Below are positions 8,382 to 51,398 of a stretch of 64,000 nt of DNA, in pieces (the stretch's first letter is position 1; each line of letters starts with the position of its first letter). The position numbers were made by a program, and so were the translations under genes. Source of the stretch: Gloeomargaritales cyanobacterium VI4D9 (GTDB lineage: Bacteria; Cyanobacteriota; Cyanobacteriia; Gloeomargaritales; Gloeomargaritaceae); NCBI GenBank assembly GCA_927797885.1, contig OV696605.1:1711157-1775156 (forward strand), given 5' to 3'. The notes under the pieces were generated by a model that was given only the letters and a program-made list of their open reading frames with translations, searched no databases and was not told where the DNA came from.

Positions 8382-10820
8382 ATGGTAGCGACACCGACGA
8401 AACCGGAAGTAGGGAATCTCAGTGCCTTTGGGCCTGCCCGCGCCACGATTACGGGTACGCCTTTGTCCCCGACGGAATTGCACCAGATAGATGCCTATTG
8501 GCGGGCATCGAACTATTTGGCGGTGGGGATGATTTATTTGCAGGACAATCCCCTGTTGCGGCAACCCCTGCATAGTGACCATATTAAAAATCGCTTGTTG
8601 GGTCACTGGGGGGCGAGTCCGGGGATTGCGTTTGTCTATACGCACCTAAACCGGATTATCAAAAAATTTGACCAGGATATGCTCTACATGGTCGGGCCGG
8701 GGCATGGGGCACCGGGATTTCTTGGCCCCTGTTACCTGGAGGGGAGCTACAGCGAGTTTTACCCCAATTGCAGCCTGGATGAGGCGGGGATGAAGCGGTT
8801 TTTCAAACAGTTTTCTTTCCCCGGCGGTATTGGCAGTCACTGTACGCCGGAAACCCCCGGTTCCATCCATGAGGGGGGGGAGTTGGGCTACTCCATTTCC
8901 CATGCCTACGGGGCGGCTTTTGACAACCCGAACCTGATTGTGGTGGCGCTGGCTGGGGATGGGGAGGCGGAAACGGGGCCTCTGGCCACCTCCTGGCACA
9001 GCAATAAATTTATCAATCCGATCCGGGACGGGGCGGTACTGCCCATCCTGCACCTGAATGGGTACAAAATTAACAATCCGACGGTCTTGGCGCGCATCAG
9101 CCATGAGGAATTGGAAGCCCTGTTCCGGGGCTATGGTTATACGCCCTACTTTGTGGAAGGCTCCGACCCGGAAAGTATGCACCAGGCGATGGCGGCCACG
9201 ATGGATCACTGTATTACGGAGATTCACCGGATTCAGGCGGAAGCCCGTTCCTCGGGGCAAGTGACCCGGCCCCGCTGGCCGATGATTGTCCTGCGTACCC
9301 CCAAGGGCTGGACCTGTCCTGCCTATGTGGATGGCAAAAAAGTCGAGGGGTTTTGGCGGGCGCACCAGGTGCCGATGGGGGGGATGAAAAATAACCCGGA
9401 GCATTTACGCATCTTAGAAGCATGGATGCGGAGCTACAAACCGGAGGAACTGTTTGATGACCAGGGGGCACCCAAACCGGAGGTGATGGCGGCGGCTCCC
9501 ACGGGCACCAAACGCCTGGGTTCGACCCCCTATGCCAACGGCGGGCTGTTGCGGCGGGAACTGCGGATGCCGGATTTCCGTGACCCGAAATATGCCATGC
9601 ACTTTGACAAACCGGGCACCATCGAGGCGATGAACACCAAGCCCCTGGGGGTATTTCTGCGGGATGTGATGGCTTTGAATATGCACAATTTCCGGGTGTT
9701 TGGCCCCGATGAAAATACCTCGAATAAGCTGGATGCGATTTATGAGGTCAGTAAAAAGTTCTGGATTGCCGAGTATTTCCCGGAGGATGCGGATGGGGGC
9801 GAGTTGGCCACCGACGGGCGGGTGATGGAATACCTGAGTGAACACACCTTAGAGGGGTGGTTGGAAGGGTATTTGTTGACCGGGCGGCACGGGTTTTTCT
9901 CCACCTACGAGGCGTTTGTCCATGTGATTGATTCCATGTTCAACCAACACGCCAAATGGTTGGATATTTGCCATGACATTGCTTGGCGGCAGTCCATTTC
10001 TTCGTTGAATTTGTTGATCACCTCTACGGTTTGGCGGCAGGATCATAATGGGTTTACCCACCAAGACCCGGGCTTCCTGGATGTGGTGGTGAATAAGAGT
10101 TCACGGGTCACCCGGATTTATTTGCCCCCGGATGTGAATTCCCTGCTTTCTTGTGCGGATCACTGCCTGCGGAGTAAGGATTACGTGAATGTGATCGTCT
10201 CCGATAAGCAAATGCACCTGCAATATATGAATATGGACGATGCCATTCGGCACTGTACCAAGGGGCTGGGCATTTGGGATTGGGCCAGCAATGACCAGGG
10301 CAGTGAACCGGATGTGGTGATGGTGGGGTGTGGGGATATTCCCACCCAGGAAGCCTTGGCCGCCACCGATCTTCTGCGCCGGGAGTTTCCCGATTTGAAA
10401 ATCCGGTTTATCAATGTGGTGGATTTGTTCCGGCTGCAACCGGATACGGAGCATCCCCACGGCATGAGCGACCATGATTTTGACAGTTTATTCACCCTGG
10501 ATAAACCGATCATTTTCAATTTCCACGGCTATCCTTGGTTGATTCACCGCTTAGCCTATCGGCGGCATAACCACAACAATCTGCACGTGCGGGGCTACAA
10601 GGAAGAGGGGAATATCAACACGCCGATGGAGTTGGCGATTGCCAATAACATTGACCGGTTTACCCTGGCGATGGATGTGATCAATCGGGTGCCCAAACTC
10701 AAGGTGGCGGGTGCCCATGCGAAGGAGAAATTCCTGAATATGCAGATTGATTGCCGCAACTATGCCTACAAATACGGGGTGGATATTCCCGAGGTCATTA
10801 ACTGGCGTTGGCCCTACTAG
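8382..10820 (+). CDS. xfp: Phosphoketolase (xylulose 5-phosphate/fructose 6-phosphate)
   Basis: 812 residues, full length. A thiamine-diphosphate enzyme that splits xylulose 5-P or fructose 6-P with phosphate to acetyl-phosphate plus glyceraldehyde 3-P or erythrose 4-P. Visible signatures: [37 protein letters not shown], and the ThDP-binding [23 protein letters not shown]; the C-terminal half has [14 protein letters not shown]. In cyanobacteria this route supplies acetyl-phosphate when carbon is in excess or in the dark. A lactate dehydrogenase follows in the same orientation, and a hairpin with a T run separates the two. Confidence 0.95.
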
Positions 10821-13697: not shown

Positions 13698-14414
13698 ATG
13701 AAATTAGCGATCTTGAGACCCTATCGTTATCTGGTCTTGGGAATTTTTTTGGTGATCCTAGTAGGCTGTTCCCAGGTCACTCGTCAGGTGGTTCAACTGG
13801 GGGCACCCAATGTGACTGCCCAACTGACTCAACCTTTAGTTGCCGGGGTGGGTTGGGGAGATTTACGCCTCAATCAGACAACCTTGGCAGACTTCCTGAA
13901 ACAATTTCCCGAAGAAAACTTTCCCATCAATTGGAGACAAGGGCGATATATTCCAGTTAGCTTCCGCTCTGAAACGACCGACCACATCCAAATCTACCAA
14001 TCCGAAGAACTAGCGTTTTTCCAAGCTTCTGACTCCGAATGCACCAGTGATCCCCTCGAAGCGGACAGTAGGGCAAATCAGAATTTGCGAGCTTGGGTGA
14101 CCCGCTTCCCCGCCTGTGGCAAACTCCCTTTGGTTTATATTGGAGCGGTCGTTACGTACAGCCAAGAAGACATAGGGGAATTGCCCTATCCGATGCGGAC
14201 AGATCAAGGGGTCACCTTACTTGATCCAGAAACGGCTCTTGAGGTGTACGGCTCCAATTTACTCCCTGACGATGCCACCCGGGGCTTGTATCTGGGGGGC
14301 ACGGGATACCGAGAACGGGATCAGGTGAGAAAATATGTGTACCCAGATGGGATTATGTTTGTGGTGAAAAACGACCGGATTGTCGAAATGGGTATCTTTC
14401 CCCCTGTGGAATAA
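13698..14414 (+). CDS. Predicted lipoprotein of unknown function
   Basis: 238 residues. The N-terminal hydrophobic stretch ends in a lipobox LVGC with Cys at residue 24, so it should be lipid-anchored and face the periplasm. The remainder has no motif I recognise; it contains two Cys pairs (SECTSD, FPACGK) and a C-terminal domain with YVYPDGIMFVVKNDRIVEMG. Separate from pgm by 137 bases and followed by a MITE. Confidence 0.65.
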   Translation: MKLAILRPYRYLVLGIFLVILVGCSQVTRQVVQLGAPNVTAQLTQPLVAGVGWGDLRLNQTTLADFLKQFPEENFPINWRQGRYIPVSFRSETTDHIQIYQSEELAFFQASDSECTSDPLEADSRANQNLRAWVTRFPACGKLPLVYIGAVVTYSQEDIGELPYPMRTDQGVTLLDPETALEVYGSNLLPDDATRGLYLGGTGYRERDQVRKYVYPDGIMFVVKNDRIVEMGIFPPVE

Positions 14415-34555: not shown

Positions 34556-34588
34556 CACAAGTGTTGAATCCTGCAACAAAACTTTATA
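34556..34588 (-). repeat. Solo IS4-end fragment
   Basis: The sequence cacaagtgttgaatcctgca... continues to aaaacttta exactly as at 20020-20050, the 3' end of the IS4-type transposase. Here it is alone and abuts the left end of the IS630. Confidence 0.6.
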
Positions 34589-34644
34589 TACAGTCTTTTG
34601 CGCTATTATAGGATACAAGCCATAGAAATAATGAGGACAACGAG

Positions 34645-35727
34645 ATGCCTACACATTCCTTAGATTTACGGCAAAGAATCGTAGTTGCATACCAAGCGGG
34701 AGAACAATCCGGGAAGTAGCTAAGCGGTTTATAGCGAAGCGTGGCGAAGCCATTGGTAACTAAAAGGACAGTACATCGCCTGGTACAACAGTATAAACAG
34801 ACTCAAGACTTAACACCTAAAAAAGTAGGGACAAAACGAGTTGGAATTTTAGAACAAAATAAAGTTGCGATTTTAGCCATTGTTGAAGAGTATCCAGATA
34901 AGTGTTTGTGGCAATATGTTGAGATAATCGGAGAAAGGCTAGGAAGTGAGTATTAGCACATTGCATTCTTTCTTGAAAAAGCATAAAATCACTCTAAAAA
35001 AAAAGACATTCCGCAGTGAAAAAGTCAAGAGTGAAGTTGTGCAGAACGCTTAGGATACTGGCATAAGATTGGAAGCGTTCCAGCCAAAGATATAGTTGCT
35101 GTAGATGAAACAGAAGGGAGGGGATGGAGAGGAAAGTTGCACGGAGTTTACAAGGGAAAAAAGTTTATAGTTATCGCCAGAAAAACAAGGGTCAGAAATA
35201 CACGTTAATTGGTGCTATATCTGTGGATGGTATTGTTTGTCATAAAATCATTAAAGGCTCAATGAAGAAACAGGATTTTTTAGAATTTGTGAGGTTCTCC
35301 TGAGTATTTGGTGATAAGCAGAGTTTATACTTAAGCCTGACAGGGGTTTCAGCCCCCCTAGCGACAGAAAAGCGTATCGTCCTATACAATTCCCACCACA
35401 AATCTAGGAGAGCCATTTGTGAAAACAGAATTATGCCCAAAATCAAATGAAAAGAAGGTGGTAATTATGGACAACTTGAATAGTCATAAAGCCATAGAAG
35501 TACAACAGATGATTAGCCAGACCGGTGCTCGTTTCTTGGTTCTCCCTGTGTATTCACCAGAATTTAATCCAATGGAAATGATGTGGTCAGTCCTAAAGAA
35601 TTTTATTCGACAGTTTCATGATTCACCAGTAAAAAATATACAGTCAATTATCCAAGCATCTTTGTTATTGATTAATCCTTCTTCTTTTGCAAATTGGTTT
35701 GCCAAATGTTGCTACTGTACCCCATAA
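34645..35727 (+). pseudogene. IS630-family transposase, decayed
   Basis: Starts MPTHSLDLRQRIVVAYQAGE, then a one-base loss leads to a stop (tag at 34717). A 22-base insertion with a GGCGAAGCC core restores the frame, giving VTKRTVHRLVQQYKQTQDL. More stops follow; later pieces show VAVDETEGRG (first Asp region), and after the R2 element VVIMDNLNSHKA (second Asp) and YSPEFNPMEMMWSVLK (DDE catalytic Glu region). Inactive. Confidence 0.75.
35293..35415 (+). repeat. R2 MITE-like element with perfect 8-base target duplication
   Basis: Starts GGTTCTCCTGAGTATTTG and ends CAAATCTAGGAGAGCC. It is flanked on both sides by ATTTGTGA (35285-35292 and 35416-35423). GG-TCTCC tips and 8-base duplications resemble ISL3-family elements, which is an inference. 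Centre has gacaggggtttcagccccc, a strong hairpin. Confidence 0.85.
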
Positions 35728-36364: not shown

Positions 36365-36442
36365 CCCGTACTACTGGGCAGGAAATCGCTGAAACCCGTA
36401 AGCCGTCGGGGATATACCGCACTCGAACGCACTCACAAGGAA

Positions 36443-36514
36443 TGGCTCAGGCGTGATTTGAACACGCGACCAAGGGCTTATGAGTCCCCTGCTCTACCGC
36501 TGAGCTACTGAGCC
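36443..36514 (-). tRNA. tRNA-Met (anticodon CAT)
   Basis: 72 bases on the minus strand, beginning GGCTCAGTAGCTCAGCGG and ending GCCTGAGCCA with CCA encoded. Acceptor stem GGCTCAG/CTGAGCC, D-arm TAGCTCAGCGGTAGAGCA, anticodon stem-loop with CTCATAA, T-arm GCGTGTTCAAATCACGC all fold normally. G1-C72 rules out the usual initiator; elongator Met is most likely, although a CAT-anticodon tRNA-Ile2 cannot be fully excluded. Confidence 0.9.
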
Positions 36515-36538
36515 ACACGCACAGATTCTTATATTAGC

Positions 36539-39019: not shown

Positions 39020-39094
39020 TTTGATTTCCCTTGACTCCGTTTTTTTAGTGTAATCCGCCCGGATTAAACTGGAGGCAGGGGATGGGAGGTGACC

Positions 39095-40642
39095 ATGCAC
39101 ACCCGGGTCTGGAGTGCCGCCCTGCTGGGCATCGAAGCGGTGAAAGTCGGTGTGGAGGTGGACATTGCCGGGGGACTGCCGGGGCTGGTGATCGTGGGTC
39201 TGCCGGATAGTGCGGTGCAGGAATCCCGGGAGCGGGTGCGGGTGGCGTTGAAAAATTCCGGGTTTGCCATGCCCCAGCGGAAGGTGGTGGTGAACCTCAC
39301 CCCGGCGGATTTACGCAAGGAGGGACCGGGGTTTGACCTGCCCATTGCCGTAGCGATTTTGCTGGCTTCCGAACAGGCACCGGCAGATGGGGTGGAGACG
39401 ACTTTGTTTCTGGGGGAATTGTCTCTGGATGGTGCCCTCAGGGGCGTGGCGGGGGTTTTGCCAATGGCGGCAACGGCGGCGAAATTGGGCATTACCCGGC
39501 TGATTGTGCCTGCGGCGAATGTGCGGGAAGCGGCTTTGATCCAAGGACTGCGGGTGTATGGGTGCGCCCATCTGCGGGAGGTGGCGGAACTGCTCCAAGC
39601 CCCGGAACGTTTTACCCCCGCCCAGGTGGACCCATTGCAGGAATTGCACCAACAGGCGGGGCAGATGGGGCTGGATTTGCGGGATGTGAAGGGGCAACAC
39701 CTGGCTCGACGGGCATTGGAAATCGCCGCCGCCGGGGGACATAACCTTTTGCTGGTGGGACCACCGGGAAGCGGCAAAACCATGCTGGCACGGCGTTTAC
39801 CCGGGATTTTGCCCACCCTGACCCTGCAGGAAGCCCTAGAGGTCACGCAAATCTATTCCGTCGCCGGTTTACTGCCGGAACGGGGGGCATTGGTGAATCA
39901 GCGTCCGTTTCGTAGCCCGCACCACTCCGCCTCTGGACCCGCCTTGGTGGGAGGGGGCAGTATTCCCAAACCGGGGGAGGTGTCCCTGGCGCATCACGGG
40001 ATTTTGTACTGCGATGAACTGACGGAATTTAAGCGGGATGTGCTGGAATTTCTGCGCCAACCCCTGGAGGATGGACTGGTCACGGTCTCCCGGGCACGGC
40101 AGACGGTCACATTTCCGGCTCGCTTTACCCTGGTGGCTTCCACCAACCCCTGCGCCTGTGGGTATTATGGGGATTCAGTGCAAGCCTGTGTTTGTACACC
40201 GCATCAACGTCAGCAGTACTGGGGCAAATTATCAGGACCGTTGCTGGATCGGATTGATTTACAGGTGCAGGTGGGTCGGCTCAAACCGGCAGAAATGGTG
40301 CAGCAACCGACCGGCGAAGATTCAGCGACCGTGCGAGAACGGGTGCAAAAAGCGCGTCAATTGGCGAGGGAGCGATTTGCTCAAACATTACACATTCAGC
40401 ACAATGCCCAGATGCAGTCCGCCCAGATTCGCCAGTGGTGTCAATTGTCCCCAGAGAATCGCAGTAAATTGGAAATGGTGATTCGCAGGCTGGGATTATC
40501 GGTGCGGGGGATGGACCGATTGCTGAAAGTCGCCCGGACGATTGCGGATTTGCGAGGGCAAACCAGCCCTTACCTGGATTGGGAGGATATAAAGGAAGCA
40601 GTGCAGTATCGCTCCTTAGAACGTCTGACCGGATTGCAGTAA
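39095..40642 (+). CDS. comM: ComM/YifB-family Mg-chelatase-like ATPase
   Basis: 515 residues. A hexameric helicase-type AAA+ protein which in transformable bacteria drives branch migration during natural transformation. N-terminal Lon-substrate-like domain, Walker A in [16 protein letters not shown], Walker B in [10 protein letters not shown], and the CxxC zinc-type motifs [17 protein letters not shown] 39095 preceded by GGGAGG gives [15 protein letters not shown]; a GTG at 39089 is an alternative. Confidence 0.93.
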
Positions 40643-40662
40643 CTTTAATTTTAGGGCACCTC

Positions 40663-40800
40663 TACAGTCTATTTGTCAATTAAAGGATACAAAAAGTGTC
40701 CATTATTCCAAAGGCATAGCTCCGCTACACAGGCTATCAAGATGATTGGCTTACAGAAAGTGGAATTTAATTATATCCCATAACCACTGAAAAGACTGTA
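40663..40800. repeat. IS630-like MITE
   Basis: Ends TACAGTCT and AGACTGTA are inverted and resemble those of the IS630 at 34589. The interior (attaaaggatacaaaaag ... tatcccataacc) matches 1512-1627. It abuts the truncated IS630 fragment at 40801, so it inserted at a TA inside that IS copy. Confidence 0.65.
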
Positions 40801-41153
40801 TCTCAAGATATTGCCGCAAACACTTGTTTGGATACTCTTGAACAATGCCTAAAATCTCCACTTGATTTTGTTCTAAAATTCCAACTCGCTATGCCTCCGG
40901 CACGGCACGGCCTAACGTCTCTGCTTTCGTTAAGTCTTAAGTCTGTTTATACTGTTGTACGAGGCAATGTACCGTCCGTTTAGTTACCAATGGCTTCGCC
41001 ACGCTTCGCTATAAACCGCTTAGCTACTTCCCGGATTGTTCTCCCGCTTGGTATGTAGCTACAATTCTCTGCCGCAAATCTAAGAAATGTGTAGGCATCC
41101 CTTTGTCCTCTCAGTTCAATGGTCGGTATCCTATAATAACCCAAAAGATTGTA
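40801..41153 (-). mobile_element. IS630 5' fragment (second copy)
   Basis: Reverse complement of the first third of the IS at 34589: right tip caaaagattgta, the MPTHFLDLRQRIVVA start codon region, the same one-base loss and stop, and the same 22-base insertion (tagcgaagcgtggcgaagcc). An extra GC-rich insert at 40891-40916 (atgcctccggcacggc...) is unique to this copy. Confidence 0.75.
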
Positions 41154-41364
41154 TCTTTTTCCAAAAACTTAGAAAATCACATTCGTATCATCTTCAATTT
41201 CATCCATCACTATAACGAAGCATTACTTGGATAGCACTACCGAAGGTTCAGCAAGGGCTTGATAAGTCCCTGAATTTGTCGTCTCATAAAAATACTGTTA
41301 CTCGTGGTTTCTGCCAATCCAAAATACCATTTTTAGTCTCCCTTTTCCACCCTTTCGTTAACAT

Positions 41365-41886
41365 TCAACACTTCTGACTCTTGGCTTTTTCCTTTCGCGC
41401 AACGACTGGCCCCAATACCCGCAACACGGTTCTGTAACTGGGAGGGTTAGCATCCCCTATCTCACCCGCTTTCGCCTGTACTCTAAGGGCAACTTGCTTG
41501 GAGTTCATACGCCTACTACCCTCGTTGCCCGCCTCGTAAGTTTTGATGATAAAGTTTTGGCAGAACTCGGAGATTCGATGTTTACCCTGGTCGGCCCTAC
41601 CAGAGGTCATCAAGGCAGAAACTCCCTCTACTTCCCAGCGTTTAACTGACCGCTGTACAGTTCGGACAGAACACCCTAATTTAAGAGTAGCTTCCCGTAG
41701 CTTTTGCCCATAAGTGGTACGGTCACATGGCTCTAGCAAGGACTGAATTACCTCCAGCTTGTGCTGAACCTCTTCGTCTAACTGCTCAACAATCCTCATG
41801 TTTTCCATTTGGCCAATGTCTCTTTCACCAGAAAGAACCATTTTTTGAGGCTGATCCAGTTCCTCCTGGAATATCTCCAAAACCAC
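41365..41886 (-). pseudogene. tnsB: TnsB N-terminal fragment of a type V-K CAST-like transposon
   Basis: 173 residues. Segments QHKLEVIQSLLEPCDRTTYG, KLREATLKLGCSVRTVQRSV, RADQGKHRISEFCQNFIIKT and SKQVALRVQAKA closely follow what I remember of Scytonema-type TnsB of type V-K CRISPR-associated transposons (helix-turn-helix region). Full-length TnsB is about 580 residues; the DDE catalytic domain is gone, the frame ending after KEKAKSQKC. The transposon end with TnsB-type motifs lies upstream (to 42215). No tnsC, tniQ or cas12k is present. Confidence 0.7.
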
Positions 41887-41889
41887 TGA

Positions 41890-42215
41890 GCTAACCCTCT
41901 CTCTAAAAAAGCTAACCGCTCTTCAGCAAAGTTCAATCCCTACAACAAGTAGGCAGACTGAATAATTCTTTACGTACATTATAAGCCATTTGGTCACAAA
42001 GCGACACCCATTCTGTCAGTCACCCAGTTTTGGCTTTCAAGAAAAACGACAAGGTGTATGTCATTGCTGAAGAACACAACAGGCTATTTGTCATTTCTGT
42101 ATAATTACCATAAGCAATAAACTGCCTGATAAAATACTCGGAGATGCCTAAAAATAAAGGGGGTCAGGCTGACGACGTTAATTTGACTCGACGACAAATA
42201 CTGTGGCACTGTACA
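41890..42215 (-). mobile_element. Left end of a CAST-type (Tn7-like) transposon
   Basis: Read on the minus strand, the outermost bases are TGTACAGTGCCACAGT, followed by ATTTGTCGTCG (42189-42199), AACGTCGTCA (42170-42179), and further in AATGACAAAT (42086-42095), AATGACATA (about 42058-42066), TTGTCGTTTT (about 42043-42052) and further GTCGC/TGTGAC-type sites near 41992-42005. This arrangement of TGTACAGTG tip plus repeated TGACA/TGTCG boxes upstream of tnsB is the pattern of type V-K transposon left ends. Confidence 0.65.
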
Positions 42216-42525
42216 AGGGTGGGTGGTGTTGCCCAGTCACCTGAATTGTAAGTACAGATTTGATATTTGACCATGTCTAATAAGTATGTTTAGCAGGTTA
42301 GGGATTGTAGCGGATTGCCCCGCCTTTGTTTTTAATAACCTCGACAGATTTCATAAATTATAGGGCACTTCTAAAACCAGGTCGTAGTTTGGTTCTGGGA
42401 AGTTTCTATTCGCTAATCAAGTGGGATTGCTATAGGAGAGGTACTCTTAAAATTTTGAGCAATCACACATGGATTTAGGCTCCCCCAATCATCTCAATTG
42501 AACGCCCCGCCTGAGAGTTCCTGCC
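42216..42525. other. Spacer outside the CAST left end
   Basis: No gene. It contains a fragment of R4 (GGGCACTTCTA at 42363) joined to the right half of R1 (42373-42434, ending gggattgctata). The remainder before purA has no recognisable structure. Confidence 0.4.
42373..42434 (+). repeat. R1 half copy
   Basis: Reads ggttctgggaagtttctat, cgctaatcaagtgggattgc and the tip tata; matches the right half of R1 in the orientation of 44942. The left half is missing. Confidence 0.6.
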
Positions 42526-43854
<1,329 letters not shown>

Positions 43855-51243: not shown

Positions 51244-51398
51244 TATTGGTATCATCTTTAACTTCATCCATCACTATTATGAAGCATCACTTGGATAGCA
51301 TTAGGAAAAAAACCAGGCTTATCCGCTTCCCTCCATCAATAATCCCTTCTGTCTTACATAAGATTAACACGACCTAAATCCAATTAGGATTGCTACGG

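Follow-up and report, generated by a model that had tools for sequence, protein, structure and literature searches.

A probable right-end remnant of a type V-K CRISPR-associated transposon in a Gloeomargaritales cyanobacterium

We analysed a 64,000-nucleotide stretch of the Gloeomargaritales cyanobacterium VI4D9 genome (contig OV696605.1, positions 1,711,157 to 1,775,156; hereafter the window) and found at 41365-42215 a truncated tnsB gene with a transposon end in front of it, very probably the right-end remnant of a type V-K CRISPR-associated Tn7-like transposon (CAST). An initial annotation had read the locus as a type V-K relic, and this reading is borne out by a V-K TnsB model, by the TnsB of ShCAST and by 91% and 96% DNA identity to a near-complete element of the same genome, CAST-1. 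At least five CAST loci, the relic included, are present in the genome. The same chromosome carries two cas12k-bearing copies and two further end fragments; the earlier view that such elements have been in this lineage is therefore correct, but not for the past only. Cas12k, TnsC and TniQ are absent at the relic locus, and no other CAST parts were found in the window. Likewise, the annotated absence of the catalytic domain, tnsC, tniQ and cas12k holds for the locus and the window but not for the genome, where tnsC, tniQ, cas12k and CRISPR arrays are present elsewhere.

A type V-K tnsB stump with its own right end

The open reading frame that contains the stump spans 41365-41886 on the minus strand (173 codons, GTG start), with no internal stops in its frame. 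Comparison with CAST-1 and with an insertion sequence of the sister species shows that its last ~13 bases (41365-41377) are insertion sequence and not tnsB, leaving a tnsB 5' stump at 41378-41886 (minus strand) that encodes residues 1 to about 170. A gap-free PDB match pairs stump residues 26-171 with ShCAST TnsB residues 28-173 (E = 1.7e-55), and TnsB_0_V-K is the sole PADLOC family that matches the stump (E = 3.3e-46), placing the fragment in the V-K clade as the N-terminal part of its TnsB. Both DNA-binding domains are included, and the stump breaks off short of the DDE catalytic domain. ShTnsB has D205, D287 and E321 as its catalytic residues (PMC9527255); their equivalents are absent from the stump, the alignment ending at ShTnsB residue 173, ~30 residues before the first of them. 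The likeness to Scytonema-type TnsB proposed earlier is supported by the gap-free ShCAST alignment, yet the nearest relative is CAST-1 of the same genome, whose TnsB is 85% identical over residues 2-81 and 91% over residues 77-171.

The region immediately upstream of the stump, 41887-42215 (minus strand), is a transposon end that terminates in TGTACAGTGCC, carries TnsB-type TGTC/GACA boxes and is 91% identical to L005:9989-10314 of CAST-1. Its outer tip, TGTACAGTGCCA, was located at 42204-42215 (minus strand) by pattern match and end alignment. The exact pattern occurs once in the window, with no second copy found there, although the pattern alone is weak: allowing up to two mismatches gives 5 window matches against 4.0 expected. 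The boxes number six in 329 bp against 2.4 expected, a count reached by 2.5% of shuffles. The same end of CAST-1 has eight, six of which are intact in the relic; the two damaged ones lie at end positions 39 (ATGTCG to ACGTCG) and 135 (CTGTCG to CTGTTG). The tip and repeated boxes noticed initially are thus real, and the boxes are conserved in aligned ends, TGTCG boxes occurring also in Nodosilinea-type right ends. A TGTACA tip with TnsB-type boxes therefore stands in front of tnsB, and the two parts have the correct relative orientation, as annotated, with the DNA alignment to CAST-1 starting at the tip. The tip and first boxes are common to the array-side ends of both large elements of the genome and to end fragments of the sister species.

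Which end this is follows from convention. In V-K elements the right end is the one beside tnsB, tnsC and tniQ, and the left end the one beside the array, anchor spacer and tRNA (PMC9938897); the same usage is found in PMC11406308, and CAST-1 fits it. The relic end, first labelled a left end, is therefore a right end. A second, array-side end is absent from the window, where an array-side end query matches the same relic tip only.

A near-complete relative on the same chromosome

The window lies inside a single 3.16-Mb contig that also carries CAST-1, a near-complete V-K element (C1:155988-179872; L005/L006). CAST-1 contains tnsB, tnsC (TniB; V-K TnsC model), tniQ, type I restriction cargo, a CvkR-like MerR regulator at the CvkR position, a Cas12k of 601 aa and a CRISPR array, and each of its ends bears a TGTACA tip. 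Its right end and tnsB start align to the relic in two blocks, of 573 bp (91%) and 269 bp (96%), starting exactly at the tip; unlike the relic, CAST-1 keeps tnsC, tniQ, cas12k, the array and both ends. A genome-wide search for Cas12k, TniQ, the other end and an array thus found all of them in CAST-1, and the searches for TniQ and TnsC gave one match each, both in this element.

Between the two blocks that match the relic, CAST-1 tnsB carries an insert of ~177 bp (L005:10559-10735) that the relic lacks. The insert contains an in-frame stop and cuts the first DNA-binding domain off from the remainder of TnsB; since it splits CAST-1 tnsB, no tnsB was found intact in the genome. Rfam gave no matches on the CAST-1 region, leaving an intron unsupported as an identity for the insert, and no second copy was present in the loci compared.

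The first 17 nt of the last regular CAST-1 spacer, TTTCTATTATGAATCTG, have a perfect match immediately beyond the array-side end, next to a GGTA (NGTN) PAM, the PAM-side edge of the match lying about 64 bp from the tip. This 17-nt anchor guide sits within the regular array, and its target lies beside cheW, not a tRNA gene (L006:13602-13673, 13874-13940). A 10-bp direct repeat, ATTTCAGTTA, is flush with both CAST-1 tips (L005:9979-9988, L006:13874-13883); the target duplications described for Tn7-like elements are 5 bp long.

The second large element (C1:1550045-1560526; L007:10046-20000 plus L011:1-527) has a Cas12k 96% identical to that of CAST-1 and a tRNA-Met adjoining its array-side end; tnsC and tniQ were not found in it. 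Its TnsB, encoded in two overlapping frames, is much more distant (42% over relic residues 30-132). Judged by these sequences, the element looks chimeric: it shares about 91% identity with CAST-1 over 3.5 kb on the side of MerR, Cas12k and the array, and its tnsB and right end are of a different branch. End queries also matched a solo right-end fragment split by a repeat (L029:5783-6046; C1:350.8 kb) and a solo left-end fragment without a tip (L030:6040-6139; C1:577.0 kb).

Relic DNA has matches in two of the seven genus genomes searched, the source genome and its closest relative. The latter carries a truncated Cas12k, a MerR gene and an array-side end beside cheW (L133:8072-8135), with the same 17-nt protospacer and PAM as CAST-1. 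The spacing to the protospacer is shorter (about 53 vs about 64 bp), which suggests that these remains represent a separate insertion at the same site. The closest relative also has a solitary right-end-like tip between chromosomal genes (L152:6876-6937; C1:1551875-1551936).

How the remnant may have formed

The inner boundary of the stump is marked by a second mobile element. The 5' end of a DDE_Tnp_1 insertion sequence occupies 41242-41376 (minus strand; 135 bp, 97.8% identical to sister-species L152:716-850 and 9239-9373), its end at 41376 flush with the last tnsB base, 41378. The closest relative holds two copies of this insertion sequence, with a DDE_Tnp_1 transposase at L152:775-1755. 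Beyond it lie a 59-bp short repeat fragment (41181-41239; 88% to window 51245-51303), a 356-bp mobile-element fragment (40799-41154; 83% to window 34588-34926) and a MITE-like repeat (40663-40803; ACAGTC...GACTGT) with several copies in the source genome and the sister species. Flanking the right end on its outer side is a short dispersed repeat at 42387-42435 (GGTTCTGGGAA...AATCAAGTGGGATTGCTATAG), which is abundant across the source genome and its relatives.

The flanking genes are comM-like (39089-40642, plus strand) and purA (42526-43842, minus strand), and collinearity with the sister species stops at 40652 and 42501, respectively. The closest relative has a TPR gene after comM and a NUDIX gene after purA, two genes that the source genome carries at C1:2.52 Mb and 0.09 Mb; the relic is therefore at a rearranged junction. 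None of six relatives has comM next to purA, and none of the six offers a clean empty site. As an attachment site, the tRNA-Met at 36442-36515 (minus strand) was rejected: it points away from the relic, with intact housekeeping genes between. No spacer of either array matches the window within two mismatches over the first 17 nt.

Homology shows that an element of the CAST-1 family once occupied this place, its right end lying at 42215 and its tnsB running toward lower coordinates. The flush junction and the debris beside it suggest that tnsB was hit by a DDE insertion sequence at about codon 170, and that deletion or recombination may then have removed the rest of tnsB, tnsC, tniQ, cargo, cas12k, the array, the left end and most of the insertion sequence. 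This order, insertion sequence before deletion, would be the simplest account. In the intact element, by analogy with ShCAST, for which both steps are established, TnsB would bind the boxes of both ends, and Cas12k with its crRNA would pick the target through TniQ and TnsC. The remnant, with one end only and no catalytic residues, is immobile.

Probable neutral drift and alternative readings

Substitutions were polarised with V-K relatives as outgroups, leaving out the codon at the insertion-sequence junction. The relic branch has 3 synonymous and 9 nonsynonymous changes against a site ratio of 117:396, and the CAST-1 side 3 and 2; the polarised relic changes are few (n = 12), with 18 further changes unassignable. 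Several altered positions are conserved in the outgroups, including a Leu to Ser at residue 80, beside a base-contacting arginine, and two changes further along, Trp to Cys and Lys to Glu. The stump looks to be drifting neutrally, with no sign of selection in these small numbers. Because its substitutions fall at the neutral ratio and two of eight boxes are damaged, the relic looks dead, not repurposed; together with the single end and the missing catalytic residues, this agrees with the original description of a dead end rather than a working system.

The same data weigh on the idea that the stump is kept as a TnsB that only binds DNA, a trans-dominant repressor acting on transposon ends to silence the other Cas12k elements of the genome. 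In its favour, the frame is open, begins with a start codon and has an upstream region of its own; the stump keeps both DNA-binding domains and arginines equivalent to the base-contacting R77, R81, R99 and R106 of ShTnsB, and related ends occur elsewhere in the genome. However, the 3:9 neutral ratio, changes at conserved positions such as residue 80 and the decayed boxes of the stump's own end speak against it, and we consider it very unlikely. Mobilisation of the relic in trans by CAST-1, as a non-autonomous mini-element, could draw on one good tip and six remaining boxes, but the missing second tip in the window refutes it for the source strain and CAST-1 tnsB is itself interrupted by about 177 bp, which makes this reading extremely improbable. 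Nor is there appreciable probability left for a piece of another TnsB-type or DDE transposon (Tn7, Tn5053, IS481-like) unrelated to Cas12k: Pfam and NCBIfam give generic helix-turn-helix similarity only, and although the NCBIfam ISNCY, IS630 and IS481 models match weakly over the helix-turn-helix, far below their cut-offs, alignment of 41365-41886 favours V-K TnsB over other transposase families by far, and the V-K TnsB model, the ShCAST TnsB structures and the same-genome Cas12k element refute such an origin. A dead V-K right-end remnant is the reading that we retain.

A decay series and its known counterparts

Degraded V-K loci are on record, with 169 regulators described beside cas12k or degenerated cas12k (PMC9938897). 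To these the relic contributes one more host and one more stage of decay but no mechanism; taken alone, it is the scar of a transposon and an ordinary, degraded type V-K CAST. The genome as a whole presents a small decay series on one chromosome, of near-complete, partly lost and solo-end CASTs. The genus is probably Gloeomargarita, the cyanobacterial lineage closest to plastids, and our literature search found no paper linking Gloeomargarita with Cas12k; host lineage and decay series are mildly interesting. The cheW site, with V-K elements or remains that differ in spacing between two species, allows repeated RNA-guided homing to a non-tRNA site to be examined directly.

In other hosts, V-K elements of Nodosilinea and relatives (L032-L034) encode TnsB 82-83% identical to that of CAST-1, and their right end, starting TGTACAGTGAC and carrying TTTGTCAT, GGGTCAAATT and TGTCG boxes, is recognisably like that of the relic; in L032 and L034 tnsB is open across the whole matched region. 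Nodosilinea sp. FACHB-131 shows several tips in a row before tnsB (L034:4376-4440), as would arise if an element had landed next to the end of another. Compared with ShCAST (Tn7747, Scytonema hofmannii), the relic keeps only the first ~170 TnsB residues and is without the catalytic domain, partner genes, array and left end; in both, however, tnsB adjoins the right end, and the TnsB N-terminal domains align gap-free.
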